From positions 1-44,682 of IMG/VR virus record IMGVR_UViG_3300010316_000015: a DNA stretch of 44,682 nucleotides. One strand, written 5' to 3'. The position numbers and the translations under genes are program-made. The notes below the pieces were generated by a model that was not told where the DNA came from, ran no database searches, and saw only the letters and a program-made list of their open reading frames with translations. Of the stretch, positions 11,276 to 43,916 are shown piece after piece. Positions within the stretch are counted from its first letter, which is position 1. Every line of letters starts with the position of its first letter. The stretch is from a virus.

Positions 11276-11620
11276 ATGAAACTCTTAGATTTGATCAAGG
11301 AAAGCACAGAGCGGCCTTTTGTTTTTATTGAAAACAACAAAGCAGTCCCGCTGAATATTGTACAAAAGATCAAAATGGAATTAGGGATAGTTATCCTTCA
11401 TAAAGATAATAAAACGTTTGTAGCTAAGAAAGATGTCCGGTTCTATGATGCTGTGTCGGAACTGGAAGACAAAGATATTCCAATCGGTAATGTATACTTC
11501 GTCAACAAAAACAAAACCGGTATATATGTTAGAATGACTAGCATGGCACAAGAAGATGGAGAGTATATAGGCAGCTTTGTTTTTGTTATACCATTTGATA
11601 AAAGTCAATTCACTGTATGA
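11276..11620 (+). CDS. putative capsid-targeted protein, unknown (114 aa)
   Basis: I start at the ATG at 11276 (MKLLDLIKESTERPFVFIEN), not the GTG upstream. The N-terminus fits a capsid-targeting leader with a possible cut after I-K-E (residue 9). The rest is a small beta-rich domain without recognised motifs. The stop overlaps the next start as ATGA, so the cassette is translationally coupled. First gene of a four-gene group all carrying such leaders. Confidence 0.7.
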   Translation: MKLLDLIKESTERPFVFIENNKAVPLNIVQKIKMELGIVILHKDNKTFVAKKDVRFYDAVSELEDKDIPIGNVYFVNKNKTGIYVRMTSMAQEDGEYIGSFVFVIPFDKSQFTV

Positions 11621-12096
11621 AAATCCAGCAACTCTTCGAAAATAACAGACAACCATTGTTCCATGGTACTGATTTTTATTCTACCTGCAATATTATATTA
11701 ACAAACACGATGAGCGAAGGGGAATATTTCGGCCTTCCGGGCGAGCCACACGGTATTAGGACAACCAGAGACTATAAGGTAGCAGAAAGGTTCACTCATA
11801 ATCATGAAGAATACGGGTTGGGTGGTATCTTTGTATTTGACACCAATAAATTAAGAAATAGATATAAGATAATTCAATACAATGATAGAATTAACGGCCA
11901 CGCGAGTTACGATGAAGCTGAAGAAGTTATCGCAACGGAAGTAATAGAAAATATAGACCAATACATAATAAGGATCGATTTGGAACGGAAACGGATTTCA
12001 GAAGGCATCATTGCATTAGAAGAAGATGAATCATTTGATATCATTGATCAGATGGATAAAATATTATCTTACTCTAAACTAAATATCAAAGATTAG
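11617..12096 (+). CDS. capsid-targeted ADP-ribosyltransferase-like protein (159 aa)
   Basis: Leader MKIQQLFE resembles the T4 capsid-targeting peptide, with expected cleavage after LFE. Immediately after it comes 'LFHGTD', the first-strand motif of many ART-fold enzymes, then 'GIRTTRDYKVAERF' (second motif with T-T-R) and 'YDEAEEVIATEVIENIDQYI', which contains an E-x-E. Order and spacing fit an ART fold. T4 packages the ART Alt in the same way. An HGT start may instead indicate a phosphotransferase-like relative. NAD-dependent modification of host proteins or RNA is inference. Confidence 0.65.
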   Translation: MKIQQLFENNRQPLFHGTDFYSTCNIILTNTMSEGEYFGLPGEPHGIRTTRDYKVAERFTHNHEEYGLGGIFVFDTNKLRNRYKIIQYNDRINGHASYDEAEEVIATEVIENIDQYIIRIDLERKRISEGIIALEEDESFDIIDQMDKILSYSKLNIKD

Positions 12097-12100
12097 AATT

Positions 12101-12487
12101 ATGAAAATCCAACAACTCTTCGAATTATTTGAAAATGACGCATTCATGAAGAACCCTTCTTCAAGGCGGCTTCAATCATTTCTCAGTAAACGAGTTGAAC
12201 ACTTTGCCAGAGCCGTGGTTGATCAAGAAGGTAATTTCTACGTTTTCAATCCATACATCTATATTCACGATGAATTCAAACAAGAACAAGGCATCACATA
12301 TTCTCGTAGCATACCATTATGTGGATATTCACTGTATGCATATACAGATTGCTTAGCCTGTAGACAACAGGATGTTGATGATGGTGAAGTTCACGAAACA
12401 ATGACCGATCTTGCCCGACATACACCAACCATTGTTCGTGCTTATGGTCCGGGCGTCACCTGTATTGATATTCATGGTGATCCATGA
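12101..12487 (+). CDS. putative capsid-targeted protein, unknown (128 aa)
   Basis: The leader MKIQQLFELFEN has two possible (L/I)xE cleavage sites in tandem. The rest is a compact domain with 'RAVVDQEGNFYVFNPYIYIH' and a Cys pair 'CLACRQ'. It overlaps the next gene by 4 bases (ATGA). I do not recognise the fold; its place between two ART-like genes suggests cargo or a partner. Confidence 0.65.
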   Translation: MKIQQLFELFENDAFMKNPSSRRLQSFLSKRVEHFARAVVDQEGNFYVFNPYIYIHDEFKQEQGITYSRSIPLCGYSLYAYTDCLACRQQDVDDGEVHETMTDLARHTPTIVRAYGPGVTCIDIHGDP

Positions 12488-13383
12488 AAATTAACCAACT
12501 ATTAGAAGGCATCAGTTCTATATTGTTCCACCGAACCGATGTGTTCAGTATGCTATCGATCCTTGATGATAATCAATTCATTCTCACCAGTGATATGGGA
12601 ACCAGTTCGGAAAATGATTTTTCTGGCGGTGAACCCTTTTATCTATCAACTACCAGAACCCTATCCGGCTTTTATGAGCGTGATATTCGCCATGCCAGTA
12701 GTGCTGGATATGTTGTGCTGGATGGACAAAAACTGATGGCAGACGGTTTTACCGGAAAGCCTATTGATTATTGGGGTCCATCATTTCGCACAACGCGGCC
12801 TGATAAGTTCGAATCAGAAGATCGTATCTTCTCAGACAAGCCTGCTATTCCTAACGCCGTAAAATATATAACCGAAATTCACCTGTACGCAAACTTGGAC
12901 AAGATGGACAAGAATCAGGACACCGGTTCCGAAAAACAGAAATCCAAAATACGTAAGATCATCATCGCCGCGAAGAAGAATAATATACCCGTGTCGGTTT
13001 ATGATAATGCTGATGCATATAATAGTCGCAATAAAGCTAAAGCGCTGACTGATCTATCACGGCTTAAGAGTGATTCATCGGTAGACACGAGTGATAGGTA
13101 TCATGGCATCACTGTGAATTATCTGAAGCCATATGTGGAATTATTATCAGCGCCATTACATGTCACCCTATCGAAAGATGCGCGCCGAATTAAGAATAAT
13201 ATACTAGATCATCCGTGGCACGTTGGTGATCATGTTAGATCACTTGATTCCACCATTCATAATTCTCGCAAGAAGAACATGAAGTCCAACGAGTTCACGG
13301 TGTTGTGTAAGAAATTAGGGTTGCGAAAATCCGCTGACATAATTGAATACATCAGAAAGAAATATGATGAACCCAAACAGTGA
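12484..13383 (+). CDS. capsid-targeted R-S-E class ADP-ribosyltransferase-like protein (299 aa)
   Basis: Leader MKINQLLE (cut expected after LLE). Then 'LFHRTD' supplies the first-strand Arg, 'FYLSTTRTLSGFYERD' the S-T-T motif, and 'FESEDRIFSDKPAIPNAVKY' an E-S-E with the two acidic residues typical of R-S-E class mono-ADP-ribosyltransferases. The C-terminal 130 aa are basic and helical, possibly for nucleic acid or target binding. Last gene of the coupled cassette, followed by a terminator hairpin. Best parallel: T4 Alt, a packaged and injected ART that modifies host RNA polymerase. Target here unknown. Confidence 0.7.
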   Translation: MKINQLLEGISSILFHRTDVFSMLSILDDNQFILTSDMGTSSENDFSGGEPFYLSTTRTLSGFYERDIRHASSAGYVVLDGQKLMADGFTGKPIDYWGPSFRTTRPDKFESEDRIFSDKPAIPNAVKYITEIHLYANLDKMDKNQDTGSEKQKSKIRKIIIAAKKNNIPVSVYDNADAYNSRNKAKALTDLSRLKSDSSVDTSDRYHGITVNYLKPYVELLSAPLHVTLSKDARRIKNNILDHPWHVGDHVRSLDSTIHNSRKKNMKSNEFTVLCKKLGLRKSADIIEYIRKKYDEPKQ

Positions 13384-13412
13384 AAGCCCCCGGCTATTAA
13401 CCGAGGGCTTTC
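13382..13412. terminator. terminator hairpin, identical copy at 30941
   Basis: GAAAGCCC..CGG / CCG.GGGCTTTC stem with a CTATTAA loop directly follows the stop codon of the ART-like gene. With a few flanking bases the 34-nt sequence is repeated exactly at 30941-30974. The stem is nearly symmetric, so it may end transcripts from both sides. Confidence 0.65.
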
Positions 13413-14246: not shown

Positions 14247-14332
14247 TATATCTAGAAGCATCGTGGCCTCTAGTAACAACGTGGCGGCTTGCGGCCCCGC
14301 GTCATGAAGATGTATATATAACAGGTTTTTTC

Positions 14333-14469
14333 GATCTGTAAACCCTGTCACTGCACTTTTTTTTATTTTTCTCAGCGGCGGTAAAACCGAGAGCACTCAT
14401 TCGTTGAGAACATATTTAGCAGGCTTCGCGGATATGTAAACCCCCTAACTGCGTTTTTTAATATTTTTC
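14333..14469. repeat. imperfect 39-nt direct repeats (14333-14371, 14431-14469)
   Basis: Two copies of 'GATnTGTAAACCC..T.ACTGC' followed by a T-rich tail ending ATTTTTC lie 98 bp apart. The second copy overlaps the 3' end of the minus-strand ART-like gene, so the first may be a remnant of a duplicated gene end. Confidence 0.45.
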
Positions 14470-14807
14470 ATTTTCCACATATCGGTGATCTGATCGGGGT
14501 GCACTCGTTCCGTTATGAATTCATGCGTTCGGGTGATCCAAGCTGACCCTTTATCATATGGCGATGGTGATAGTGCCGGGACCACGCAATGGCTATTTTC
14601 TGTTAATGCGATCTGAAGAATACAGGTAGGCCAACCGGATGCAGCTTGTGTTTCAATTATATATTGAGGATTATCAGTCAACCACACAAAACGATCACGG
14701 CTTCTATAACACGTAAGACCACGGCGCAGACATTCATACTTAGGTACAATACCGCGCTTAAGAATGGAGTCCAAACTGTTTTGATGAGTGATGTGGTACA
14801 ACAGCAT
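14445..14807 (-). CDS. small ART-like protein (120 aa)
   Basis: The product starts MLLYHITHQNSLDSILKRGI, the 'YHITH...SL.SIL..G' signature of small ART-fold proteins (DarT-like/DUF4433 relatives). Then 'FVWLTDNPQYIIETQ' and a C-terminal 'THEFITERVHPDQI' give the usual three-block order. It has no capsid-targeting leader. DarT enzymes modify DNA, but the family also holds inactive or RNA-acting members, so the substrate is open. It lies downstream of the 308-aa gene, separated by a 15-bp hairpin. Confidence 0.6.
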   Translation of the reverse strand: MLLYHITHQNSLDSILKRGIVPKYECLRRGLTCYRSRDRFVWLTDNPQYIIETQAASGWPTCILQIALTENSHCVVPALSPSPYDKGSAWITRTHEFITERVHPDQITDMWKMKNIKKRS

Positions 14808-14825
14808 CTGTACAATCCTTACATT

Positions 14826-14861
14826 CTCTCAAGACTGTTTGTGCGAAAACAGTCTTGAGAG
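14826..14861. terminator. 15-bp perfect hairpin
   Basis: CTCTCAAGACTGTTT / AAACAGTCTTGAGAG with a 6-nt loop lies between the stop of the 308-aa gene and the start of the ART-like gene. No T-run on either side; termination or RNA processing are both possible. Confidence 0.55.
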
Positions 14862-14869
14862 GCTGTTAT

Positions 14870-16236: not shown

Positions 16237-16240
16237 AATC

Positions 16241-18098: not shown

Positions 18099-18983
18099 AT
18101 GGATAAGACCAAGATCACCATTCAAACCATTCTAGAAGCACCAGTTGCTGGACACGAAAACATCGGCGATTTCGATAAGTCATCCAGTTTCAGAAAGCCC
18201 ATAGATCGCAAACTTGTTTCTGATCCAGCGATGGTCAAACGAGTTGCTAATGCGTTCAAGGCTGTGAACCAAGACGTATATTTCTATTTTGTGAATTCAC
18301 CCAAGGCTAATCAACATACAGAAGTGGGCGAAGTGTCGCTTGAATGGGTTCAGAAAAACCTAGACGAAGAACTGTATGATAAATTATCAGCAGACATGAA
18401 TAAGGAATGGGCCGACTCAAACGGGTTATTCATTGTGTTCACTAATAACAAGGGTTCCGAATGGCGACCAATGACACCATGGATCATGGCACACCGAGTT
18501 GGACATGCTTTATCCAGATATCGAAATGGTGCTGGTTTACAATATCAATTTCTAGAATATACAGAATTGGTAGAAATGATAGGAAGAATGGCTGTTGACC
18601 TTCTTGATGCTGGTTACGATATTGATTTTGATCCATCATCAATAAAATCATTTGATAGATCAAAAAGACGACATCAACTTATATTCAAAGGATTCTGTCA
18701 GCAGCACATGACATTTAAGTCAGCACGTGACAGAAAGGTCAGAGATTATTTTGAAATATTCAATGAACTCATTGCCCAAAAGATGATTACTGATAGCACA
18801 CCGATCAAAACGGTTCCAGAACCATTCAAAGTTGGTAACACTATATACAATCCGAAAATGAATATATCAGATAGCGACCTTGATGATTTCAGACAATTAT
18901 CGGAAATGTATGCACGTGATATTAGTGATTACGCGATTGAGGGATTATTAAGTTCTGCAATTGGTAAAATTCTCGTGATGTAA
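18099..18983 (+). CDS. putative capsid-targeted protein with HRxxH motif (294 aa)
   Basis: Leader MDKTKITIQTILE ends in I-L-E followed by A-P, fitting a capsid-targeting peptide. The middle has 'PMTPWIMAHRVGHALSRYRN'; HRVGH resembles a degenerate metallopeptidase HExxH (the Glu is replaced by Arg-Val), so zinc binding is uncertain. The remainder is helical. It converges with the 669-aa gene with no gap. Late promoter upstream. The function is not recognised. Confidence 0.65.
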   Translation: MDKTKITIQTILEAPVAGHENIGDFDKSSSFRKPIDRKLVSDPAMVKRVANAFKAVNQDVYFYFVNSPKANQHTEVGEVSLEWVQKNLDEELYDKLSADMNKEWADSNGLFIVFTNNKGSEWRPMTPWIMAHRVGHALSRYRNGAGLQYQFLEYTELVEMIGRMAVDLLDAGYDIDFDPSSIKSFDRSKRRHQLIFKGFCQQHMTFKSARDRKVRDYFEIFNELIAQKMITDSTPIKTVPEPFKVGNTIYNPKMNISDSDLDDFRQLSEMYARDISDYAIEGLLSSAIGKILVM

Positions 18984-20993
18984 TTATTTCTTATCACGCT
19001 TGTCTTTCGGGTGTGGTTTACCTTCCAGCGTTTGGTGCAAATCATATATCGTGTGTTCCAACCAGTCTTTGCCCATCTTTGATAAATCAAATTCACCAGA
19101 GAATATGTATTTGGTATATGCCGTAAGATAATGAGTATCAGCTTCGGGCCAATCTTCGACACCAAAGTGATTTGGAGCTTCACCAGAGTGTTCTAAGGAA
19201 GAATCAAGCGCATGACGTAACCAATCATCTTCACTCCACTCTTCGGGCAATTCACTATCACCGGAATTTTCCCCCAGAACGAGTTCATCACCAATAGGCA
19301 AGGTGCGGCGTGTTAAGGTAACAAAGGGCATAGAATCACCGTAATAATAGTTGTATAAAATACTATTAATGACTTCTTCCAACATGTTAACAGTAAATTT
19401 ATCGAATGAATCTTTTGATAGATCAAATCCCTCTACAACAAGTATATCAGCAATGGTTGCAATATTATTTAAGAATGTCTTTGATTTATTAATGAAATCG
19501 AATTCCATTTGATCTGGATTTATATCACTAGTTCTAATCTTATCAAAAATTGCTTTTTTAATTCTTACATCATTACTCTTAAAAATTTCACTAAGAACAG
19601 TGGTCAAGTATTCTTTCTTGGAAAAAAGCTGGATTTCTTCTAGTTCTTCAATAACTTCATCTATATCATAGTTCTCATTGAAGATACGTTTGATAAATTC
19701 GTATAACCATTCAAGATGAGGTTTTTTAAAACCTTTGTTAATACCATTTTTTACAAAGTTGTCCATATCAGTCATCAAATATTGTATATCACGTACTGTG
19801 TTACCAGTATCAATAAGCATGAAGTGTTCATTGATTTCATGGACATTATAGATACCCATACTATGGATGTGATTTAATAGAGCTTGAGGACTACCCGGAA
19901 CATTCTCCATCCACGCTTCAAGTGGACTCATTAAGGTGGGTTTAGCATCAAGTAATTTTTTCTTATCATTATAATCAAGATCATTTAGACTGAAATTATT
20001 TTCGGGCATATATCCACCACCCTGAATACCGTGGATTATATCTTTCTTTAATAAATCAATAATGTATGGATGATATCGTTCAGCTGGTTTTTCATTACCA
20101 CGACCCTTCATCTCCGTAATGTAGCCGTCACTTTTTAAAATAAAGGTCAAATGTGGTTCCCAATATTTTTGACCACCAGCAACATGAAGCGTTCTAAAGC
20201 TTAGAATATTATCATCGGTGTGTGATCTAGGGGAATTACCACAATGGCCCATGGCATCAGCCTCATCACTACACGATGCTCTATCTAGGCGAACCCACGC
20301 TTTGGTTTTCTTATCATACCACGCAATGACTTCCGTATCATCTTCATCGTGTTCAATATATCTACTGAATCTATCCCGATATTCTTTCTCTAATGTATCA
20401 AGCTCTTGTATTATCGTATACAACGATTGATTATGAAACACCATACGGTCAATAGAGTGAATACCTTGACTGAAATAGTGTTCAAATTCAGTCACTAACC
20501 TTTTAGTACGTGACCAACCTGCAACCCATAATTCACCAAGAGTATCTACCAAATCGACACGGCTTCGACCATTCAGCTTGCTTACGAATTTGTATTCTTT
20601 GATAATAAGCGAATACCAATCAATTGTTTCATCAACACCAGACGGAAGCTGTGCACCATCGGGTACGGAATGAGATATACTACCGTGAATGACTTTAAGT
20701 GGCATTATAACATTTGTAAGTTTACAAATTCGAACAGCCCACGTAACTCTGTCTTCTTTATCATTTAAAACTTTTCTAAATAACGGCACAGTAGCGGCAT
20801 ACTCCGTACAGGATTTCTGAATAACAGTGTCAACTTCAGCTAGAAGCCGTTGAACATCTTGTTCCGGTACTCTTTTCATAGCACCAGATGCTTCAATTAT
20901 TCTCTGAGTAGATGCACGAATGGATTGAACATCCATCCCCTGTGACATCTGCTTCACATCTGCTTTTTCAAAGAGTTGATTTAAAAATGACAT
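18984..20993 (-). CDS. putative capsid-targeted large protein, PcfJ-like GHCG motif (669 aa)
   Basis: Leader MSFLNQLFE followed by a helical N-terminal half. Residues about 235-345 contain 'ASCSDEADAMGHCGNSPRSH', 'PHLTFILKSDGYITEMKGRG' and 'GGGYMPENNFSLNDL'. The 'MGHC' followed by 'ILSFR' resembles the 'M.HCVG..Y' core of PcfJ-type proteins, of unknown biochemical role. The C-terminal 300 aa are acidic and helical. The start overlaps the neck gene stop (TAATG). Packaging in the head is inferred from the leader and from the late structural neighbour. Confidence 0.6.
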   Translation of the reverse strand: MSFLNQLFEKADVKQMSQGMDVQSIRASTQRIIEASGAMKRVPEQDVQRLLAEVDTVIQKSCTEYAATVPLFRKVLNDKEDRVTWAVRICKLTNVIMPLKVIHGSISHSVPDGAQLPSGVDETIDWYSLIIKEYKFVSKLNGRSRVDLVDTLGELWVAGWSRTKRLVTEFEHYFSQGIHSIDRMVFHNQSLYTIIQELDTLEKEYRDRFSRYIEHDEDDTEVIAWYDKKTKAWVRLDRASCSDEADAMGHCGNSPRSHTDDNILSFRTLHVAGGQKYWEPHLTFILKSDGYITEMKGRGNEKPAERYHPYIIDLLKKDIIHGIQGGGYMPENNFSLNDLDYNDKKKLLDAKPTLMSPLEAWMENVPGSPQALLNHIHSMGIYNVHEINEHFMLIDTGNTVRDIQYLMTDMDNFVKNGINKGFKKPHLEWLYEFIKRIFNENYDIDEVIEELEEIQLFSKKEYLTTVLSEIFKSNDVRIKKAIFDKIRTSDINPDQMEFDFINKSKTFLNNIATIADILVVEGFDLSKDSFDKFTVNMLEEVINSILYNYYYGDSMPFVTLTRRTLPIGDELVLGENSGDSELPEEWSEDDWLRHALDSSLEHSGEAPNHFGVEDWPEADTHYLTAYTKYIFSGEFDLSKMGKDWLEHTIYDLHQTLEGKPHPKDKRDKK

Positions 20994-22843: not shown

Positions 22844-23361
22844 ACGCCATTGAGTTACTTACCGCTTATAAAAAAAGTGACCGGCGAGTTGAATTTTATT
22901 CTTATACTCCATCTGGTATTAGAAAGCCTGAACTATTCTTCATCACTAAGATATTGGAAAACGGTTCAGTTACTATAGCAAACGACAGTCAATCGAATAT
23001 TGTTAATTTCAACAATCTGATTCCCATGTTTGGTGTTGGCATCTCGCATACACATAACCCACTGGGTGAAAATTCAAACGTGTCCTTCGTTAAGAACCCA
23101 CCCGTTGAAAGGATGTTGGAGTTAACGATACCGTCGCTTTTCTCTCAAGGAAGCAAACAGGTACACGATACATTGTTTCAATTGAGGAAACTGTTTGGTA
23201 AAAACACGTTCATGATTTTACACGCACCATTGATAACCGGTATCAAAGATTCGAAAACATGGACTTATATGTTTGAAACATCGGCTCATTGCTTGAATGC
23301 TAGAATGTTTTTACAGCACAATATGAACAAAGGCGATATTGATATCAAAATATTGAATTAA
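22819..23361 (+). CDS. hypothetical protein (180 aa)
   Basis: The product starts MSNEPLVINAIELLTAYKKS. GAGAG lies about 9 nt before the ATG. Mixed alpha/beta with a stretch 'GVGISHTHNPLGENSNVSFV'. No recognised domain. It converges with the 104-aa gene at 23358. Confidence 0.65.
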   Translation: MSNEPLVINAIELLTAYKKSDRRVEFYSYTPSGIRKPELFFITKILENGSVTIANDSQSNIVNFNNLIPMFGVGISHTHNPLGENSNVSFVKNPPVERMLELTIPSLFSQGSKQVHDTLFQLRKLFGKNTFMILHAPLITGIKDSKTWTYMFETSAHCLNARMFLQHNMNKGDIDIKILN

Positions 23362-23672
23362 CCAATTACAATATCTTCAATATCACTCTTTTTGATGTGA
23401 ACCAACTTCAATACGCCCTTGGCTTTTCCACGCCAGTAGCCTTGTGCGTGTAGGTTCATCAACGCATAATACAAATAGTCACCAACGATGATATCAGGAC
23501 GATTGATACCTATTCCGAATGATTCTGGATTATATTCTTTCGAGACGGAACCAACAGATTGTTCTGATCCACGGCGAGTGATCCAGAAATTCGCTTCAGG
23601 AAATTCTGTGGCTACCTGACACAAATCCTTAAGGCGATATTGTTCGCCTTCGTATAGATCATTGACTTTCAT
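23358..23672 (-). CDS. putative capsid-targeted protein, unknown (104 aa)
   Basis: Leader MKVNDLYE fits (L/I)xE with expected cleavage after L-Y-E. The rest is a small mixed domain with 'EANFWITRRGSEQSVGSVSK'. It overlaps the kinase-like gene by 14 bases, so the two are one unit. Confidence 0.65.
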   Translation of the reverse strand: MKVNDLYEGEQYRLKDLCQVATEFPEANFWITRRGSEQSVGSVSKEYNPESFGIGINRPDIIVGDYLYYALMNLHAQGYWRGKAKGVLKLVHIKKSDIEDIVIG

Positions 23673-24390
23673 CGTCTAACCCTTGTTCTAATTCAGGGTT
23701 CATATAAATGATTTCGATATCTGATAGATCATCATCAATACCTTCGTTCAGTTTATGAAGGTCATTCAAATCATATGATATAGGATCAGTGATGACCAGT
23801 GTGTTGCCACGCTTCATTATATTATCTCCATGGGCATCAAAACCCACTCTTACTCCACCGGCCTTCACACCGAACACATTAACGTGTCTGCCTAGTCTAA
23901 CACTCTTTGACCATTCTTCAACCATTTCATAAACAGCCATGAATGAAGCATTGCTTTGAATGAACTTATTAACAGCGGGAGTAAAGTTTTGTTCCCATAA
24001 GTTCTCAACGGTTTTATATGTTTTCTTGTCCAGTGGAGTTAGTTCTTCCATGATGGTCACAGTGTTCTTGGTCTTAGCATATCGAAATGACAAATAATAT
24101 TCTGGGACATGTGGGGATTTAATGGTGTTCGAATATTTCACCCATTGTTCATAACCCGGATCAATTCGATGTGTAACACGGATGATATAACCGTTTGACC
24201 GGTACACCATCGCAAACTTGCTTTCATCTGAAATCAAAACGGCATCTGATAATGCTGATTGAATCCATTCATCCAGTTTCGACATCCTGCGATAATCAGA
24301 AAGCCCGGAATAATCAGGCAGCTTCTTCAACCGCTTTGCGATGTTTTTTGGTTCTTTACCAATCCGTTCGAATAGATGTTGAATTTTCAT
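23659..24390 (-). CDS. capsid-targeted protein kinase-like protein (243 aa)
   Basis: Leader MKIQHLFE (cut expected after LFE). Then kinase-fold landmarks in order: 'FAMVYRSNGYIIRVTHR' (glycine-strand/Lys region), 'KNTVTIMEELTPLDKK' (hinge), 'FDAHGDNIMKRGNTLVITDP' (catalytic loop H-G-D-N and metal-binding D-P). This resembles aminoglycoside-phosphotransferase-type small kinases. T7 Gp0.7 shows that phage kinases can act on host proteins; packaging one in the head would be a novel route. Substrate unknown. No Shine-Dalgarno precedes the ATG; a late element lies 5 nt upstream. Confidence 0.65.
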   Translation of the reverse strand: MKIQHLFERIGKEPKNIAKRLKKLPDYSGLSDYRRMSKLDEWIQSALSDAVLISDESKFAMVYRSNGYIIRVTHRIDPGYEQWVKYSNTIKSPHVPEYYLSFRYAKTKNTVTIMEELTPLDKKTYKTVENLWEQNFTPAVNKFIQSNASFMAVYEMVEEWSKSVRLGRHVNVFGVKAGGVRVGFDAHGDNIMKRGNTLVITDPISYDLNDLHKLNEGIDDDLSDIEIIYMNPELEQGLDDESQ

Positions 24391-24395
24391 ATAGA

Positions 24396-24403
24396 TATTT
24401 ATC
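24396..24403 (-). promoter_or_regulatory. late promoter immediately before start codon
   Basis: Minus-strand GATAAATA ends 5 nt before the ATG of the kinase-like gene. Transcription from it would begin at about the A of the ATG, giving a leaderless mRNA. Confidence 0.45.
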
Positions 24404-24418: not shown

Positions 24419-24631
24419 TCACGCCAACTTCACCGTGACCGTTACCTTGGCATCCAGTTTTTGCCACTGGCCACCATAACCACTACCGCTTTCACCAAGA
24501 GTGCCATCGGAGTTGATCTTGTTCCAATACCACCAATTTGAAATACCATGATCACCAAAGAATGATCCGCCATTAATATAAACTGGGCCATCGGTTGGAT
24601 GATTATAAACATTGCCAATTGATAAACGCAT
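24419..24631 (-). CDS. hypothetical small protein (70 aa)
   Basis: ATG at 24629-24631 with GGGAG upstream. The product starts MRLSIGNVYNHPTDGPVYIN and has an aromatic, Gly-rich core ('SNWWYWNKINSDG'), followed by a beta strand tail. Its promoter, ribosome binding site and first codons are duplicated upstream (24688-24754). Confidence 0.65.
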   Translation of the reverse strand: MRLSIGNVYNHPTDGPVYINGGSFFGDHGISNWWYWNKINSDGTLGESGSGYGGQWQKLDAKVTVTVKLA

Positions 24632-24754
24632 AGTATTCTCTCCCATTGTTGATATTTATCATATACGGATGTTATGATTTGTCAATAGATAAACGCATAG
24701 TATTCTCTCCCATTGTTGATATTTATCATATACGGATGTTATGATTTGTCAATA
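24621..24754 (-). repeat. perfect 67-bp tandem duplication of promoter, RBS and start
   Basis: Positions 24621-24687 and 24688-24754 are identical. Each copy has a minus-strand TTGACA, 16-nt spacer, TATGAT, GGGAG and ATG-CGT-TTA-TC. Promoter 1: 24658-24685; promoter 2: 24725-24752. The distal copy encodes a nonapeptide-size frame, MRLSIDKS then stop (24672-24698). Confidence 0.9.
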
Positions 24755-24773
24755 GATGTCATATTATTAATAC

Positions 24774-25392: not shown

Positions 25393-25466
25393 TGGTCCTA
25401 ACGCCGGGACTCGAACCCGATCTTCTTGATCCACAATCAAGCGTGCAGCCACAACACTTCGCTAGA
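25393..25466 (-). tRNA. tRNA-His(GTG), no encoded G-1, A73
   Basis: Acceptor TCTAGCG/CGTTAGG, D-stem GTGT/GCAC, anticodon loop TTGTGGA (GTG), T-loop TTCGAGT, discriminator A, encoded CCA. The base before position 1 is T. Most bacteria encode G-1 paired with C73; absence of both is known from a group of alphaproteobacteria and from eukaryotes. See the Thg1-like gene at 30074. Confidence 0.85.
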
Positions 25467-27154: not shown

Positions 27155-27826
27155 CTAGATTTTTCTATTAATAGGGGTTTTACGAGCCGCAGCAGATTCA
27201 TCAACTTTAGCACCAGCGCTAGTAACTTCAATATCATTCGGGTTTTCACGCCCCGCGTTTAACCATTGGCGAAGTTTTCTAACCGGACCAGCTGTATCTA
27301 GTTTACCACCAAGAATAGCTTGGCACGCACCAAGCAACATAAGTACTCCTAATGTTTTTGCAAACACGGTCAAGGTGGCGGTGCCCAACCCTTGCGTAAG
27401 GGTGCCACGCGCGCCGCCAAGGCCGGTGAAGAATGTGAGAACAGTTTTAAGCTCTTGCGCCTTCTTACCTTCTTTATAACCAGCCATGTGACGGAATAAG
27501 AAGGTAGCAAGGTTAAAAGCAATATCAAACAGTTTTAATACCATCTCTGGGAACTTTAATACACCAACCAAGAATGATCTTGCTTTATCCATGAAGGATT
27601 CTTCAGTTAACAATCCTTCATTTAAGAGGCCCAAATGTTTTTTGCACCAATCCATAGCTCTACGAACTATACCTTTATTTCTTGGCGCTGCACGAACAAC
27701 ATCGGGAACAGCGCTCTCAAAATCTCTGCACCAATTTTCAGCCCATTTGGCGATGTCAACTTCCGGCTCATCAGCACCTTCACGAAGGATTGAGTTTAAT
27801 ATCTGAGGGGTAATATAAGATGACAT
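27155..27826 (-). CDS. putative capsid-targeted protein with hydrophobic segments (223 aa)
   Basis: N-terminus MSSYITPQILNSILRE followed by G-A-D fits (L/I)xE (L-R-E). Residues about 90-115 and 150-170 are hydrophobic or Gly-rich ('TLTVFAKTLGVLMLLGACQA'). The mix of leader and membrane-type segments is unusual for an internal head protein. GGAG and a late promoter (27854-27861) precede it. Function unknown; membrane action after injection is speculation. Confidence 0.6.
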   Translation of the reverse strand: MSSYITPQILNSILREGADEPEVDIAKWAENWCRDFESAVPDVVRAAPRNKGIVRRAMDWCKKHLGLLNEGLLTEESFMDKARSFLVGVLKFPEMVLKLFDIAFNLATFLFRHMAGYKEGKKAQELKTVLTFFTGLGGARGTLTQGLGTATLTVFAKTLGVLMLLGACQAILGGKLDTAGPVRKLRQWLNAGRENPNDIEVTSAGAKVDESAAARKTPINRKI

Positions 27827-29183: not shown

Positions 29184-29702
29184 TCATTGAGAATGCGGGG
29201 TTCCGCCATATGCCAACCGGTTATAGATGTTTTCCAGATCGCAACGATTTTGGTCTTTTGTTTCGATGCATGGAAATGATTTCATAGAAAATCCACGCTT
29301 CTCAACAACACTGAGTTCAGAATACCGATAACCAAACACCGGAAACGCATCAGCGACATAAGCAAGAAGTGCTGTGATTCGTTGCTGGCCATCGATAAGC
29401 CACTGATCACATTCGTCATCCATATCGTTGCTTGCGTTATAAACAAACGAACCAATAGGCAACTCCAACCAAATACTTTCAAGCAACGCGATTTGTTGTG
29501 CCTGTGTCCATACTGGTGGCCGTTGAAACGGTGGCAAGATGAACCGACCCAAGCGACGACAACCATCACGCAAAATTGGTGCGAATTCACCTTCTGTCGA
29601 AAGAACGAACATCACCATCGTGCTATGAGGCGAACCAACATAAAACGGTTCCGGCATTACCCGTACTTGATCTTCTGCCGAAAGTTGTGGAACAGGTTTC
29701 AT
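29184..29702 (-). CDS. DUF262 (ParB/GmrSD N-terminal-like) protein (172 aa)
   Basis: 'ILPPFQRPPVWTQAQQIALL' with 'PIGSFVYN' and 'WLIDGQQRITALLAYVADAF' are the core motifs of DUF262, whose DGQQR loop is shared with GmrS and other ParB-like nucleotide hydrolases. The usual C-terminal nuclease half (DUF1524) is absent, so this is a short stand-alone domain. ATGA overlap with the gene upstream. In bacteria the domain serves anti-phage systems; in a phage it might act on modified DNA or interfere with such defences. That is inference. Confidence 0.75.
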   Translation of the reverse strand: MKPVPQLSAEDQVRVMPEPFYVGSPHSTMVMFVLSTEGEFAPILRDGCRRLGRFILPPFQRPPVWTQAQQIALLESIWLELPIGSFVYNASNDMDDECDQWLIDGQQRITALLAYVADAFPVFGYRYSELSVVEKRGFSMKSFPCIETKDQNRCDLENIYNRLAYGGTPHSQ

Positions 29703-30048: not shown

Positions 30049-30077
30049 AGACTATCAGGTTACAAAGTACTTGTCAA
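30049..30077 (-). promoter_or_regulatory. early promoter
   Basis: Minus strand TTGACA (30072-30077), 17 nt, TAGTCT (30049-30054). Confidence 0.6.
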
Positions 30078-30868
30078 CTTTTATTGATTATAGGAACCGC
30101 ATTATCAAAAATCACTTCAACCGGATTGACCAGTTGTATAAACATATCAGTCGAGTATACCTTAAGCACGCTACGCAAAAACGGACCAGTTGGGCGCTTG
30201 TGTTCTGGAATATGGGCCAACTCAGCTGGCGTTAATGATTTATATTCTTTTTCACTACGCACGAACGATCCATACATGCTGCGACTTGGGAATGAATATG
30301 GATCAACACCCGCCATTCGGATTTTCTCAATAAGATCAACCGTTTGTATGCCCTGTAGTTCACCATGATCGAACATAGACTGGGCGATTGATTGAATAGC
30401 ATTACGAGTGCAATCCATATAACGCCAACGAAGCATGTTCACCGCTTCCATACGGTCAGGCAGGTTCATCACACGGGCGTCAAAGCAGGGCAGGCGATCT
30501 TCATACCCATCCCACCCACGAATACACGCGTTGAGTTTCGCCGTGGCCATGGATGCAAAAACGCTAACCATTTTATGAACTTTGCCACCAAACATCAATT
30601 GAGATGTATCGGTTGTCGGTGTGATCATCAAACTGATTTCATCTGATTGAACATAACCGATAACGGAATTGGTTTTTTGCACCATGTACTTGGTGGTTTC
30701 ATTCATGGCTTCGGTCATCCGTTGATCGAACGGCTTCGTCATGCCACTGGTGAAGGTGGAGAAGGAGCGACCATCAAGCCGAACATACACCGGACGAGAA
30801 CCATCAACTCTACGACACGTTTCAAACGCTTCGTAATTCTTCATACGATTGCCAAGGTCCGGTGACAT
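30074..30868 (-). CDS. Thg1-like tRNA 3'-5' nucleotidyltransferase (264 aa)
   Basis: 'RPVYVRLDGRSFSTFTSGMT' (first metal-binding Asp and the RLDGR motif), 'KPFDQRMTEAM', 'IGYVQSDEISLMITP' (the SDE motif) and 'GGKVHKMVSVFASMATAKLN' are the conserved blocks of the Thg1/Thg1-like family, which adds nucleotides in the 3'-5' direction, classically G-1 on tRNA-His or in tRNA 5'-end repair. Length matches the family (about 240-280 aa). GAGGG precedes the ATG; promoter at 30897-30925. The phage tRNA-His at 25393 lacks G-1, a plausible substrate. Confidence 0.88.
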   Translation of the reverse strand: MSPDLGNRMKNYEAFETCRRVDGSRPVYVRLDGRSFSTFTSGMTKPFDQRMTEAMNETTKYMVQKTNSVIGYVQSDEISLMITPTTDTSQLMFGGKVHKMVSVFASMATAKLNACIRGWDGYEDRLPCFDARVMNLPDRMEAVNMLRWRYMDCTRNAIQSIAQSMFDHGELQGIQTVDLIEKIRMAGVDPYSFPSRSMYGSFVRSEKEYKSLTPAELAHIPEHKRPTGPFLRSVLKVYSTDMFIQLVNPVEVIFDNAVPIINKS

Positions 30869-31382: not shown

Positions 31383-31994
31383 TTAGTAATCCCTGATTTC
31401 TTCTTTAGCCTTCAGGCCATTCTCACGTTCACGCATTACGCCCTTTGGTACGAACGAAAACGTCATTGTAATGATTGAGCTTCCTATATGATTGGTATGA
31501 TTCCTATCCAGTTTTTGTGGAATGTCTGAATCTGAATAATTAATTATCATATCAGTGGCGGCATCCAGCTCAATAACGGCATGAGAATAATCAACCTTAG
31601 TGCTATTTGGTAAATTAGCAATAATTATTTGTTCAAATTTCTTCAAAAAATCCTTAGTTGCATCTCTGATATGATCCGCTTGAACACGATTCTTACGTTT
31701 CATGAAATATTTTTTGAAATCGACCTTAAGAATAAGGCTAGCTTCTTCCCACTGGACTCTGTGTCTTTCACCATCATCATCACCAACCATATCACCATCG
31801 ATTGTATATTGTAATGGAACGGCGGTAATAAATTTTGTTTTATGACCATTCATCTTGCTTTTTTCATTTATGCTATCAGCTAATGATGAAATGATTTTGG
31901 TAATTCTCCGCACCAATGTCTCATTCATTTCAGGAAGCATAACATCGTTGACTTCCATGATGGTCTTTAATTTGTCTTTTAATGTATGGGTCAT
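31383..31994 (-). CDS. putative capsid-targeted protein, unknown (203 aa)
   Basis: N-terminus MTHTLKDKLKTIME fits (L/I)xE with a cut after I-M-E. The rest shows a helical part (residues 20-55), then beta strands and 'HIRDATKDFLKKFEQIIIAN'. No recognised domain. Part of the operon starting at 33564. Confidence 0.6.
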   Translation of the reverse strand: MTHTLKDKLKTIMEVNDVMLPEMNETLVRRITKIISSLADSINEKSKMNGHKTKFITAVPLQYTIDGDMVGDDDGERHRVQWEEASLILKVDFKKYFMKRKNRVQADHIRDATKDFLKKFEQIIIANLPNSTKVDYSHAVIELDAATDMIINYSDSDIPQKLDRNHTNHIGSSIITMTFSFVPKGVMRERENGLKAKEEIRDY

Positions 31995-31998
31995 GTTG

Positions 31999-32466
31999 TT
32001 ATCCTAATTTAATTTTTGCACTGACCATATCATTACGACCTTCGTCTTTAAAGTATTCAGCACCAAGTTTATTCCAAAACGGTCTAGCCGATTTCTTGAT
32101 ATCGTTTATTATTAATTCACCATCACTTGTACAGTTGGTTAATAATGTTACGACCTTCGTACCAATTCCATTTTTCTTCTTACCGCGAAGTAATTCAATA
32201 TTTATCAAACGGGTTACAGTCAGTTGATCTTCACCAACGCCTATAGTGACGGTCCCGTAATGCTCTTCGCCGACTACAATATTACCTTCCATTCTATATT
32301 CTGTGTTTTTCACGGAAGTTATTTTTCCATCACCACGGTTGATCGCAACAAGGATTTGATCTTCATCAAAATCGGCCCAATAGATAGGAGCACCCAAAAA
32401 CTCATGGATTTGTTTGCCAACCTGCATACGAGCAACAGATTCATATATCAGTTGTGCCAGTTTCAT
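31999..32466 (-). CDS. capsid-targeted GNAT-like protein (155 aa)
   Basis: Start at 32464-32466 with GGAAG upstream. Leader MKLAQLIYE, cut expected after I-Y-E. The C-terminal half has 'ELLRGKKKNGIGTKVVTLLT' (motif A-like: R-G-K-x-x-G-I-G) and 'SARPFWNKLGAEYF' (motif B-like), the pattern of GNAT acetyltransferases. Acetylation of a host protein soon after injection is a possible role; the match is by eye only. Confidence 0.6.
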   Translation of the reverse strand: MKLAQLIYESVARMQVGKQIHEFLGAPIYWADFDEDQILVAINRGDGKITSVKNTEYRMEGNIVVGEEHYGTVTIGVGEDQLTVTRLINIELLRGKKKNGIGTKVVTLLTNCTSDGELIINDIKKSARPFWNKLGAEYFKDEGRNDMVSAKIKLG

Positions 32467-32746
32467 TTTTCTTCCATCTTTTGTCACGGGTCATCCAGAA
32501 ATATGTTCCACCAGTAGCAACACCGACAAACATTGCAGCAGCCACCACCACCATGAACCAATCACCCGTTGCCGCTACACATGCAAATAATTCAGCATCG
32601 GCACTGAACTTCTCTGCGGCTGTTTGTGCATACCAATATGCAACGTCATGAGCGTCACAACATTGAACAATCACATTATCTGCAACCGTATCAGGAAACA
32701 GGGTGCAGCCATCGAGATATTCAGTTGGTGGCGGTGCTTCGGTCAT
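32441..32746 (-). CDS. phospholipase A2-like motif protein with C-terminal TM (101 aa)
   Basis: 'NVIVQCCDAHDVAYWYAQTA' contains C-C-x-x-H-D-x-x-Y, the catalytic His-Asp signature of phospholipase A2-like domains, with a further Asp and Cys downstream ('FSADAELFACV'). A transmembrane helix (residues about 60-85) and a basic tail follow. It is coupled to both neighbours (TAATG upstream, 26-nt overlap downstream). Membrane damage or lysis is a possible role; no calcium loop is obvious, so activity is uncertain. Confidence 0.55.
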   Translation of the reverse strand: MTEAPPPTEYLDGCTLFPDTVADNVIVQCCDAHDVAYWYAQTAAEKFSADAELFACVAATGDWFMVVVAAAMFVGVATGGTYFWMTRDKRWKKNETGTTDI

Positions 32747-33201
32747 TATAGAGAATGAATATTCCAGACACGAATAACGAAGTCTGGACCACCAACCGGC
32801 GCAATATCAACATTGAATCCTAGTGATCCAGATGAACACTCAACTATATAATGGGATTTACCATAAACACTGCGACGATATTTTTGCGGAGCTGGTTTAC
32901 CGGATAATTGATTTAACAGATGATCAGTGATAGTGGCAATTATCTTGCCAATTGATTGGCGGGTATCATCGAGTTCGCAATGAATGTGGACGCTCGCAAT
33001 ACCGGAATCCTTATTGACGCTTGTTTCATCAGCACGAGGCGAATATTTTCCAAGAAGTTTGATGAAACCCTGAATCAAGGCGTTAGCAGCTGCCGTATCT
33101 AATTGTTTCACATCGGCACTAGCAGCACCAACTGCATCGAATTCGCTATCATCTTTGAATTCGAAAATACGATTTAGATTTTCTTTAAGTATATCGGGCA
33201 T
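32746..33201 (-). CDS. putative capsid-targeted protein, unknown (151 aa)
   Basis: N-terminus MPDILKENLNRIFE fits (L/I)xE (I-F-E). The remainder is a mixed domain with 'SVHIHCELDDTRQSIGKIIA' and ends 'FVIRVWNIHSL'. It begins directly after the upstream gene ends. No known family. Confidence 0.6.
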   Translation of the reverse strand: MPDILKENLNRIFEFKDDSEFDAVGAASADVKQLDTAAANALIQGFIKLLGKYSPRADETSVNKDSGIASVHIHCELDDTRQSIGKIIATITDHLLNQLSGKPAPQKYRRSVYGKSHYIVECSSGSLGFNVDIAPVGGPDFVIRVWNIHSL

Positions 33202-33564
33202 TTATCTTGGACCTTTATTTGGAGTTGGTTCATTTTTCGCTAAAATATATTTATAAGTGTGTACAACACTTTTATAACCATCGGTGTCTTGATAAACGGC
33301 ATCAACCCAATTCAACAGATTGATAAATTCCACATCAAAAGCACCATCACGTTCTGGGTCATCAACAAAGCTGGCAAGAGTTGCCAATTTACCTTTGATC
33401 CATCTACGGGCTGAAGCACGGGTTCGGCTTCCTGATCCACCAGCTGTAGTAATCTCTTCTTCTTCACGATTTTGCATATTCGTGGCGTGATCACCGGCAC
33501 CAAAATCATCTGGTGTGACTTCACTGAGAATCGTTTCTAGTTTTTTTCGGAACGGACTAGTCAT
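33202..33564 (-). CDS. putative capsid-targeted protein, unknown (120 aa)
   Basis: N-terminus MTSPFRKKLETILSE fits (L/I)xE (L-S-E). A basic and acidic linker ('NREEEEITTAGGSGSRTRAS') precedes a helical C-terminal domain. First gene of a late operon of six genes with an exact late promoter (33588-33595). Confidence 0.6.
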   Translation of the reverse strand: MTSPFRKKLETILSEVTPDDFGAGDHATNMQNREEEEITTAGGSGSRTRASARRWIKGKLATLASFVDDPERDGAFDVEFINLLNWVDAVYQDTDGYKSVVHTYKYILAKNEPTPNKGPR

Positions 33565-40019: not shown

Positions 40020-40042
40020 TGTCACACCTATTTGCTTATGGA

Positions 40043-40050: not shown

Positions 40051-40090
40051 CTAACAGTAAATAGATGTGAAACATCCGATAGGAAATGTC

Positions 40091-40519: not shown

Positions 40520-40767
40520 GCATTATAAGAGACGGCGTTAGATCACAAGTTGGTGCAGAACTGTTGAAGCATAAGCAAGAAATTACTAGAAGTGCTTCAA
40601 ACATTATCAATGATGTCATTATACGAAAAGTTAGATTTAGTGAACTTCGTGAACAAATGCGAAATGATACTGACAACTTTTCAGCATCTGATATCGCTGA
40701 CCTCGATGATATTGAGGGCGAGTTAATCACTCGTATTCAAGAAGTGTTCGCACTTGTTAGTAGCTAA
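40516..40767 (+). CDS. hypothetical structural-operon protein (83 aa)
   Basis: The product starts MSIIRDGVRSQVGAELLKHK and is fully helical with mixed charges, likely coiled coil. ATGA coupling with the gene upstream and a 3-nt gap to the 909-aa gene place it in the tail/virion operon. Confidence 0.7.
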   Translation: MSIIRDGVRSQVGAELLKHKQEITRSASNIINDVIIRKVRFSELREQMRNDTDNFSASDIADLDDIEGELITRIQEVFALVSS

Positions 40768-40770
40768 TAT

Positions 40771-43500
40771 ATGGCACAGCAATGGTATAATGCTCTATGG
40801 CAGCACCGACAATTAGTTACAGTTCATAGCGAAAACGTAACATCAACACTTAATAATTTCGTTCTGTATATGGACGAGACTGGTTTCGTTAAGCCCGGAA
40901 TCAACAACGATGTGTTTGATAGAGCAAAAGCCGATGGCACCGATATCATCATTACTGCAAGCGATGGTGTCACCAAACTAAGTCATGAAATTGTTAATTT
41001 TGATATTGGATCAAAGAAATTAGAAATATGGGTTCGAATCCCAACCGTATCATCCACAAATGACACCACACTTTTTGTATATTATGGAAATGCAGTCCAT
41101 ACCGAGCCATATGATGCTTCTGTCTGGACATCATATCAATATGTATCACACGATGGTGGTCAAACCGATTCAACCGGTACAGTAAGCTCTACTACCTACG
41201 GAACACCAGTCGAAGTTGATGGTATCACCGGTAAGGCATATAGATTCCCTGATGCTGGCGATATTCATGATACCGGTCTTCAGGTTATTGATTATCCACT
41301 AACATTTCAAGCATGGGTTAAGCCCGAATCATTTACGGGTCCATATGTAATGGGTAACTTCGCGACCAGTGCCGAAGACTTCACTTTATATACACAAGCA
41401 TCCCAATGGGTTCTAACCGCTGAAAACGGTGGTGGTGCTCATGGATTCGGTACAGTCAATCAGAGTTCTTGGAACTTCTTGTCAGTCACTATCGATAATC
41501 TATTCAATAGATCATATCACAACGGTGCACCAATCGGAAATATCTCATCTGGTGGAGCAACCGGTACTATTGATTCCGGCGATACATTAAAAATCAACGA
41601 CAAGGGTGATACAATCAATTCAGCCGGTGGTATCATCGTTGATGAAATTCACTTCTTCACTGGTGTATTATCAGCGGATCACATTGCTGCCCAATATACA
41701 AACCAGTATTCACCCGTAACATTCTATGATGTATCAAACCAACAAGAAGTATCAGGTAGCTATGTTTCACCACCAGCTAGCGACATCACAATCACCACCT
41801 TCGTCGCTATCGTATCAGTCGGTGTCAATATTAAACCACCGATGTATGGTGCAGCAATCACAACATTCGCACCATCAATTGGAACCGGTGTTCTTATTGA
41901 TACACCAACGGCAACACTAACAATAACCTCGCCACTACTGGGTGTTGAAGCAAATATCTTTATCAGTTCAAACATCAATGTCGAATTTGGTCAAATATTC
42001 GGTGGTGCATCGAAATTTAAACCTTCACGCCAATTTGAATTGTATAAAGAAGGTGACCCCAATAATAAAGACTCTCAATTCCTGTCAGGAATAAATAAAC
42101 AAATTATTGATATTGGTGGTGTCACTTGTTACATTTGGAAATTACTTGGAACTCATGACCAATCCAACGTGGACGGCACACCCGGAACACAACTCGATGA
42201 AGCTTTCGGGGTTTTGGATGATGGTGTTCTAGATGGTATTCAGGATGTTGTGCTTGGTGAGAACCGAGATAGAAAATATTCCGATAATGCTATTCGATTA
42301 AAGGGTGCTTACGCGGTTTCTGAAAACGAACTTGATTATGCTCGCTTCGGAATGTCTTTGCTTGGTGATATTATTCAAATTGAATTTCACAAAGTAGACA
42401 TGGTGGATAAAGTTGGACGTAGACTTAAACCCGGTGATGTATTGGAAATGCCTCATCTTCGCGAAATTGGTGAAGATGGATCAATCGCAAATCGTTATTA
42501 TGAAGTCGATACACTTTCCAGATCACCTACTGGTTATGATCCATCATACCAATATCATATTCTTGCTGCAACTCTGAAACCAATCAGAGATAGCCAAGAG
42601 TTCATCGATCTGATGGAACGCAAGGATGAATACGGTAAAACCCTTAGAGAACAAACATCTAATCGCAAACACATTGAAGCATCAACGGCAAAAATCCAAG
42701 ATGCCGCCGATGAGCAAGCTTATACAACCAATTATGATACAACCCCATTATATATCAGCGATGAGGGAGTTATTATTTCTCATATGTGGTCTGATGATGG
42801 GAAACCACCGAACGGACGACCTGTCACACAAGTGAGTAGTTTCCCGGCGAGTCCAACAGAAGGCGATTATGTTGTTCGCATCGATATGTACCCTAATAAA
42901 TTGTATCGTTATCAAGCTGGTAAATGGTTGCTCAAAGAAAAAGACAACAAACGGGAATGGCAACCTTATAACTGGACGCGTAAACTTAGAGAATTTTCGT
43001 CTGACAGATCATTGGAGGATGACATGCGACCATGGGAACTAAAATCAATTCACGATGTCCTGTCACCTACTCAGGGTCGATCAAACCCATCTCCAAAGGG
43101 TAGAGACATCATTCATGCCAATATATTCAACTGGGATCGAAAGATTGAAGTCGAAATCCCTAGTGACGTGATTGCTGAAGCTGCTGAAGTTGAAAGAAGT
43201 GCCACACTGGTTCCAACTAATGCGGCCACTAGTATTTCAGACTTCCTGAATACCGGTGTTGGTGAATATGATTTCTTCGTCTTGTATTATGTTATTACTC
43301 GTGGTGCTAATCAGGAAGCGGGTGAAATAATCATCAATGATAATGGAACCGCAATTTCTATGGATCATGAACACAACGACATTGGTGATGTTGGTGTTGT
43401 TTTCTCAACTGTCTATGAGGGCGGGTTCAGAAAACTCAAATATACCATGACAGCTGGTTCTGCTGCCGTGATGAAATTCTTCGTTAAGGGAGCATGGTAA
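40771..43500 (+). CDS. large multidomain virion protein: DUF2341, LamG-like, T4-type structural core (909 aa)
   Basis: Residues 1-115 match DUF2341 ('NFVLYMDETGF' ... 'LFVYYGNAVHT'). Residues about 150-300 read as a LamG/concanavalin-like lectin ('LTFQAWVKPESFTGPYVMGN', 'SWNFLSVTIDN'). Residues 320-390 are degenerate repeats around 'ITTFxxxxGVxI'. Residues 400-620 ('GGVTCYIWKLLGTHDQSNVD', 'LGENRDRKYSDNAIRLKGAY', 'GRRLKPGDVLEMPHLREIGE') match a structural protein common in T4-like cyanophages. The C-terminus shares a domain with the 108-aa protein at 21814. Lectin parts suggest receptor or surface-sugar binding. Confidence 0.75.
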   Translation: MAQQWYNALWQHRQLVTVHSENVTSTLNNFVLYMDETGFVKPGINNDVFDRAKADGTDIIITASDGVTKLSHEIVNFDIGSKKLEIWVRIPTVSSTNDTTLFVYYGNAVHTEPYDASVWTSYQYVSHDGGQTDSTGTVSSTTYGTPVEVDGITGKAYRFPDAGDIHDTGLQVIDYPLTFQAWVKPESFTGPYVMGNFATSAEDFTLYTQASQWVLTAENGGGAHGFGTVNQSSWNFLSVTIDNLFNRSYHNGAPIGNISSGGATGTIDSGDTLKINDKGDTINSAGGIIVDEIHFFTGVLSADHIAAQYTNQYSPVTFYDVSNQQEVSGSYVSPPASDITITTFVAIVSVGVNIKPPMYGAAITTFAPSIGTGVLIDTPTATLTITSPLLGVEANIFISSNINVEFGQIFGGASKFKPSRQFELYKEGDPNNKDSQFLSGINKQIIDIGGVTCYIWKLLGTHDQSNVDGTPGTQLDEAFGVLDDGVLDGIQDVVLGENRDRKYSDNAIRLKGAYAVSENELDYARFGMSLLGDIIQIEFHKVDMVDKVGRRLKPGDVLEMPHLREIGEDGSIANRYYEVDTLSRSPTGYDPSYQYHILAATLKPIRDSQEFIDLMERKDEYGKTLREQTSNRKHIEASTAKIQDAADEQAYTTNYDTTPLYISDEGVIISHMWSDDGKPPNGRPVTQVSSFPASPTEGDYVVRIDMYPNKLYRYQAGKWLLKEKDNKREWQPYNWTRKLREFSSDRSLEDDMRPWELKSIHDVLSPTQGRSNPSPKGRDIIHANIFNWDRKIEVEIPSDVIAEAAEVERSATLVPTNAATSISDFLNTGVGEYDFFVLYYVITRGANQEAGEIIINDNGTAISMDHEHNDIGDVGVVFSTVYEGGFRKLKYTMTAGSAAVMKFFVKGAW

Positions 43501-43916
43501 TGAAAATAGAAAATCTATTTGAAACAGAATATGAAACGGTTCAAGGTCTACGTGGTCCAACAGAAGTCATGATGCATCCTTCATATAAGAGTGTTGCTGT
43601 AGGAATAAATGCACATGAAGAACTTCGTGGGTTCTATTCACCCGGTGATGACATGATTGCGTTCTGGGATGCGAATTCACTTCATGAAGAAGTTATTGGC
43701 AATGATCCACTGTTTTATGAATATGAAGATGTGTTGAAATTATACGTAAACAAAACCGTGTTTTCTGTTTATCATTTCAATAATCCAAATCGCACTGGTG
43801 AAATCGTTGTCGATATGATGGGTGGTTCTGAACCATCATGTTTAGCTAAATTGCGAGAATTTTCTGTATTCCGCATTTTGATGAAATCGAGACGAACCAC
43901 TTTTGATGAAGACTAA
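43500..43916 (+). CDS. putative capsid-targeted protein, unknown (138 aa)
   Basis: Leader MKIENLFE (cut after LFE) followed by 'TEYETVQGLRGPTEVMMHPS' and a mixed alpha/beta domain. TAATG coupling with the 909-aa gene. It is the only tagged gene in this structural operon. Function not recognised. Confidence 0.65.
   Translation: MKIENLFETEYETVQGLRGPTEVMMHPSYKSVAVGINAHEELRGFYSPGDDMIAFWDANSLHEEVIGNDPLFYEYEDVLKLYVNKTVFSVYHFNNPNRTGEIVVDMMGGSEPSCLAKLREFSVFRILMKSRRTTFDED

Follow-up and report, generated by a model that had tools for sequence, protein, structure and literature searches.

The window analysed here, a whole IMG/VR virus record (IMGVR_UViG_3300010316_000015) of 44,682 bases, encodes fourteen proteins that begin with a short leader ending in (L/I)-x-E. 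A sequence-only reading of this DNA had proposed that these leaders are capsid-targeting sequences (CTS) of the phage T4 kind, carried by unrelated proteins that would be packaged and injected into the host. All fourteen claimed starts and leaders are present in the sequence, with the glutamate at residues 8-16. The starts at 11276, 24390, 32466 and 43500 are not those of the longest reading frame, and their choice in spite of the longer frames seems sensible. The leader proteins of the window are encoded by separate genes and are mostly short (104-669 amino acids); gene calls came from a simple purpose-written caller. The genes, and the promoter of one of them, are listed below, G002 being a relative described in the next paragraph.

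11276-11620, + strand: leader MKLLDLIKE; 114-aa protein with no assigned function, opening a run of four leader genes
11617-12096, + strand: leader MKIQQLFE; ADP-ribosyltransferase (ART)-like by motif only (FHGT...TTRD...EAEE), no library match; its start overlaps the stop of the preceding gene
12101-12487, + strand: leader MKIQQLFE; the G002 orthologue has the leader MKLQDLFE and, there, a leaderless-type late promoter
12484-13383, + strand: leader MKINQLLE; ART-like by motif only (FHRT...LSTTR...ESED), no library match
18099-18983, + strand: leader MDKTKITIQTILE; conserved HRxGH protein
18984-20993, - strand: leader MSFLNQLFE; 669-aa protein
23358-23672, - strand: leader MKVNDLYE; orthologue leader MKIRHLFE
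23659-24390, - strand: leader MKIQHLFE; T7 gp0.7-related protein kinase (phrog_15752, E=1.9e-7)
24396-24401, - strand: TAAATA of a putative T4-type late promoter, placed exactly 5 nt upstream of the start codon at 24390
27155-27826, - strand: leader MSSYITPQILNSILRE; retained in the orthologue
31383-31994, - strand: leader MTHTLKDKLKTIME; member of a leader-gene run also found in G002
31999-32466, - strand: leader MKLAQLIYE; possible GNAT acetyltransferase (weak)
32746-33201, - strand: leader MPDILKENLNRIFE; positional counterpart in G002, MSNVTRDQLNSILNE
33202-33564, - strand: leader MTSPFRKKLETILSE; retained in the orthologue
43500-43916, + strand: leader MKIENLFE; orthologue leader MKICDLLE

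The window is contained, in reversed orientation and with 99.98% identity, in a longer contig of 79,174 bases (G001). The tail sheath protein groups the window phage with jumbo myoviruses of the T4 superfamily (PA5oct, RaK2, Atu_ph07 and Phosso), and the relative G002, of 335,552 bases, has a sheath 82% identical to that of the window. A contig of 63,866 bases from the same sample as G001, named G010, has the same GC content and a similar divergence, and the two cover complementary parts of the G002 map (17-87 kb for G010 and 120-190 kb for G001); for these reasons G010 and G001 are probably parts of the same phage. Comparison of 20 kb of the window revealed no DNA similarity to known phages.

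The leaders take several forms. In class A the glutamate is residue 8 or 9 (e.g. MKIQQLFE), in class B it falls at residues 13-16 (e.g. MADPIKSKLNSILKE), and both share a core made of a hydrophobic residue, two residues, L or I, a hydrophobic residue, at most one further residue and E. A third form reads MSFLxxLFE, and a fourth, seen in Salicola phage SCTP-2, has the glutamate at residue 12 (e.g. MNDIRKYMSLLE). Enrichment was measured in all tests against internal positions of the same proteins. Under the rule of the sequence-only reading, (L/I)xE at residues 7-16, 20 of 59 window genes match where 6.5 are expected (p=2e-6), and under a unified rule, hxx[LIF]h(x)E with h a hydrophobic residue and the match ending at residues 7-17, 17 genes match where 1.4 are expected (p=2e-14). 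A strict class A form, M[KRH][ILVM]xx[LIV][FLIVYM]E, is found at six start methionines of the window and at none of 250 internal ones. The 17 matches to the unified rule are the fourteen leader genes plus those at 9013, 2189 and 427 (- strand); these last three, the RIIB protein of G002 and several other matches were judged to be due to chance or unrelated.

Because the unified rule was framed after G001, including its part outside the window, and G002 had been seen, the independent sets carry most weight. G010, which was unseen at that point, has 11 matches against 2.4 expected (p=3e-5), and when it is taken together with the part of G001 outside the window there are 18 against 3.9 (p=7e-8). 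Among other genomes, the isolated jumbo phage SCTP-2 has 44 against 19 expected (p=5e-7), the records G003 and G005 have 32 against 13 and 22 against 10, and G012 has 18 against 8.7 (p=0.003). The 336 kb of G002 hold 51 leader genes where 10.6 are expected, so that such a near-complete relative would have roughly 40 leader proteins once about 11 chance matches are subtracted. As a positive control, T4 itself gave 14 matches against 7.4 expected, and these include proteins with known propeptides, namely internal proteins, Alt and gp24. The strict class A form occurs in no gene of PA5oct, RaK2 or T4.

The leaders are carried by unrelated proteins, as had been claimed, since the 151 leader proteins of five records fall into 120 BLAST families. 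Between relatives, the L/I and the E of the motif (P3 and P1 of the putative cut site) were kept in all 11 credible leader orthologues identified as reciprocal best matches of G001 and G002, and the neighbouring residues differ. For over half of the G001 leader genes there is no such orthologue in G002. The leader codons differ synonymously from gene to gene, and this argues for selection on the peptide. One pair of proteins is particularly informative. In the window, the leader of the protein encoded at 18099-18983 ends in ILE/APVAGHEN, and in G002 the counterpart starts with the leader MSDPIKLKLKAILE, continues for about 130 extra residues and then reads NQPILE/APVAGHEN, as follows.

L272:12038-13327, - strand: G002 counterpart of the gene at 18099-18983, with an internal L-x-E between two domains

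Since this stretch lies inside the G002 protein, the cut site appears to survive there as an internal site, in an arrangement that, judging from the two sequences, would be like that of a small polyprotein.

In T4, the protease gp21 cleaves after L/I-X-E, and capsid targeting needs no more than the ten N-terminal residues of IPIII (PMC9026906). A gp21/S77 prohead protease is encoded in G010, G002, G003, G005, SCTP-2, PA5oct and RaK2. A protease with a different consensus had been named as an outcome that would speak against T4-like leaders; as judged by conservation of the major capsid protein, the consensus of the group appears to be L-x-E. Indeed, this protein has L-x-E at the position where T4 gp23 is cut in G002, G003, G005, SCTP-2, RaK2 and PA5oct: the T4 site FLTE/AEIGG corresponds to MLME/NASGG in G002 and G010, VLME in G003, MLKE in SCTP-2, ALFE in RaK2 and FLVE in PA5oct, and in two dozen additional loci L and E are invariant, with variation in the middle residue. 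The leaders follow the same pattern, with L or I at P3 in 80 of 85, a free P2 and, as built into the rule, E at P1. Early (L/I)xE sites are also present in the prohead protease, the scaffold and a gp67-like small gene after the portal; examples are MLFKDIFE in RaK2 and MKINDIITE in PA5oct, the latter on a protein detected in the virion proteome.

It is thus highly probable, from the sequence evidence as a whole, that the leaders act as T4-like capsid-targeting propeptides, employed far more widely than in T4. According to the mechanism that we propose, the cargo genes would be expressed late, and the leader, 8-16 residues that make up a short amphipathic helix of the form hxx[LI]h(x)E, would bind the assembling prohead core. 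The gp21-type serine protease would then cut after (L/I)-x-E and free the mature protein inside the head, from which it would be ejected with the DNA at the next infection. Core binding, cleavage, presence in the virion and ejection are steps that we infer from the sequences. Packaging of the tagged cargo seems likely, and for a part of it injection and an effector function are plausible.

Packaged proteins must be made late. Of 204 leader genes, 68 have a TAAATA late-promoter core within 60 nt, as opposed to 356 of 2020 others (p=2e-7), an association that does not extend to every gene or phage. Unexpectedly, many leader genes lack a ribosome-binding site and have TAAATA placed exactly 5 nt upstream of the ATG. 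That the absent ribosome-binding sites reflect wrongly chosen starts was an explanation dropped once the fixed 5-nt promoter spacing appeared. In T4 the late boxes span positions -13 to -6 (PMC1524935); with a box so placed and a 5-nt spacing, transcription would therefore start at the A of the ATG. Genes of the TAAATA-N5-ATG type, including the kinase gene at 24390, which is the case found within the window (24388-24401, -), are accordingly predicted to give leaderless late mRNAs.

The features of a T4-type late promoter are a TATAAATA-like box at -13 to -6 and a gp55 late sigma factor, homologues of which are found in G002, G003, G005, SCTP-2 and G012. Boxes resembling NATAAATA at fixed spacing occur in seven records (G001, G010, G002, G003, G005, SCTP-2 and G012), in which 60 genes have TAAATA at a spacing of 5 and no ribosome-binding site; record by record this spacing is used 6, 2, 16, 10, 7, 6 and 13 times, with p from 1e-13 (G002) to 0.03 (G010 and SCTP-2). 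Overall the spacing-5 promoter is found preferentially at leader genes (odds ratio 4.6, p=2e-6), a signal driven by G001 and G002. In SCTP-2 a single leader gene has a promoter of the leaderless type, and in the more distant relatives most genes with such a promoter have no leader. The spacing-5 promoter was not seen in T4 or RaK2.

As to what the leaders are attached to, the sequence-only reading had named ART, kinase, GNAT and HRxxH types, and these identities fared unevenly. The kinase has a PHROG match of T7 type (E=1.9e-7); the GNAT assignment is weak, coming from a Pfam score of 0.016 in the orthologue only, and the ARTs of the window are recognised by motifs alone. Outside the window, the leader genes of G001 include two ART-PolyVal ADP-ribosyltransferases (6.8e-23 and 6.6e-15) and a LigT/Acb1-like 2H phosphoesterase (0.0014, under the curated cut-off). 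An effector function of the kinase, ART, 2H phosphoesterase and HRxxH cargo would be consistent with these resemblances. The searches of the window proteins themselves gave little: Pfam had no matches for the fourteen, a PDB sequence search with two of them returned nothing significant, and the AlphaFold2 models for 12484-13383 (pLDDT 33) and 18099-18983 (pLDDT 41, two sequences) were unusable. A search of viral contigs for relatives of the kinase (23659) and of the protein at 12484 recovered the same phage only.

Taken together, the T4-like leader with its gp21-type protease passed nearly every sequence test, and it is in the effector identities that the picture is mixed. Several observations weigh against our interpretation. 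The window's own contig carries no protease, the link to the same phage being made through sample, GC content and complementary synteny. One G010 core-protein orthologue reads LFD where two relatives read LFE. The leader excess of RaK2 is not significant in the count test (p=0.09), and the leader-like N-termini of PA5oct are not enriched in its virions when the whole proteome is considered (11/89 vs 22/186, p=0.52); as both tests are negative, not every member of the group shows the leader expansion. In PA5oct, 10 of 12 homologues of leader proteins belong to the virion proteome, as opposed to 45 of 110 other homologues (p=0.006), but since core proteins of head and tail and a match clearly due to chance (RIIB) are part of this set, it must be taken as supporting only.

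A different account accepts the leaders as true packaging and cleavage signals and holds that most tagged proteins are structural or core parts of a large head, and not injected effectors. In its favour, a number of conserved leader families without an enzymatic domain share one gene run (31383-33564 in the window), and the scaffold and gp67-like proteins carry the same signature. However, reciprocal G002 orthologues are lacking for most of the contig's leader genes, and the cargo includes a T7-like kinase, ART-PolyVal enzymes and a 2H phosphoesterase, enzyme types thought to be injected (PMC9503650). We regard this account as less likely, though a serious one, and parts of the head core, as opposed to effectors, may be found among the conserved leader proteins. 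The broader proposal, that in a giant T4-like clade the CTS is a general loading system for dozens of exchangeable late effectors, many made from leaderless mRNAs, cut after L-x-E and injected, is put forward tentatively, with somewhat less than even confidence.

Alternatively, the N-terminal helix might serve in docking to a non-capsid complex or a membrane, its glutamate being incidental; the leaders are amphipathic, and cleavage is deduced from sequence. Nevertheless, P3 and P1 are fixed and P2 is free, as at the cleavage site of the capsid protein, and a pure helix would need neither a glutamate at two distances from the methionine (residues 8-9 and 13-16) nor the retention of an internal site, which makes docking improbable. 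The shared start could also be kept at the level of DNA or RNA, whether to allow leaderless translation or through a recombination cassette that couples a late promoter and a start codon to new genes, as would suit the late promoter found at a fixed distance from the ATG of many leader genes and the ATG-AAA-like starts common to class A. We consider this very improbable, given that the leader codons vary synonymously, that leaders are found also on genes with ribosome-binding sites or translational coupling, that class B leaders differ in DNA sequence and length, and that the leaderless-type promoters of more distant relatives mostly precede genes lacking a leader. Chance or wrong start codons would account for about 1-3 of the 17 formal matches in the window; with enrichment at p of 1e-5 to 1e-20 over internal controls and independent genomes, and with conservation in orthologues, this explanation is refuted by the independent sets and deserves almost no credence.

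If the leaders are propeptides as we propose, their closest parallel is the CTS of T4 IPI, IPII, IPIII and Alt: an amphipathic N-terminal propeptide, 8-16 residues long, with (L/I)-x-E at its end, late promoters (predicted here), a gp21/S77 protease and unrelated mature proteins that include ADP-ribosyltransferases. The systems differ in scale, with about four non-core cargo proteins in T4 as opposed to 14 in 45 kb here and roughly 40 per whole relative, as well as in the leaders here being of two or more lengths (E at 8-9 and 13-16) and in the leaderless-type promoter on part of the genes. A density well above that of T4, as the sequence-only reading had stated, is thus borne out; its estimate of roughly one gene in five fits the window (14 of about 62), which is a local peak, the share in a whole relative being about 10% net of chance.

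Giant phages such as phiKZ and SPN3US likewise package many inner-body or ejection proteins cut by a gp21-related protease, but the propeptides of SPN3US are mostly far longer, often over 100 residues, and these phages belong to another group (PMC5694885). Polyvalent and MuF-fused effectors overlap with the present cargo in enzyme domains thought to be injected (ART-PolyVal and 2H), and the domain of the 669-aa leader protein (18984-20993) is found also inside open reading frames of about 3000 amino acids in other viral contigs (L273 5738-15001; L274), there without such a leader. In those systems many domains share one long protein or are fused to a head protein, whereas here each domain has one gene and its own, presumably removable, tag; no window leader protein combines several effector domains in one long polypeptide. 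SCTP-2 has the same leader signature, and its homologue of the 669-aa protein likewise starts with a leader (MRLNNLFE), but it is a distant relative whose leader genes are not annotated as packaged.

Phage-injected proteins are hard to identify, and this is usually done via proteomics. If our interpretation is correct, an N-terminal signature would list the packaged proteins of a giant-phage clade from sequence alone, mostly uncharacterised proteins plus a few enzymes that could act on host transcription, signalling or defence. The case that myoviruses often package ARTs, Nudix and 2H enzymes has been made in reviews (PMC9503650), so the packaging of such enzymes is not a new idea; the novelty is the scale of packaging that the tag defines. 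With the leader genes it could also be tested whether T4-type late promoters give rise to leaderless mRNAs. A literature search, with preprints and subscription journals outside its scope, found no description of genome-wide sets of CTS leaders or of leaderless T4-type late mRNAs in this group.

Other features were noted in the course of the analysis. SCTP-2 encodes seven related leader proteins, six of them adjacent, at 208780-214398 (L184) and 326749-327663 (L208); several have ART-like YHGT motifs, and no ART match was found for them in Pfam. In the window, the gene at 29184-29702 (-) encodes a GmrSD_N domain (6.5e-17) on its own, without the other parts of the enzyme; GmrSD is a restriction-enzyme family inhibited by T4 IPI. 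A short protein encoded at 14445-14807 (-), without leader, has a weak DarT-like start (Pfam 0.072) and an orthologue in G002. Three adjoining genes at 8475-9935 (-) start alike (MRAIILDGG, MTDNMKAIILESD and MHSVILTYD); they were not counted as leader genes and are perhaps a separate small family. The window also encodes a peptide deformylase (36586), a release-factor-like protein (10698) and a YqeY-like protein (26651). Its 13 tRNAs include a tRNA-His (25393-25466, -), found with a gene for the tRNA-His guanylyltransferase Thg1 (30074-30868, -). Finally, comparison of the window with G001 revealed a repeated stretch of about 79 bases at 24612-24757, the copies being 97% alike.

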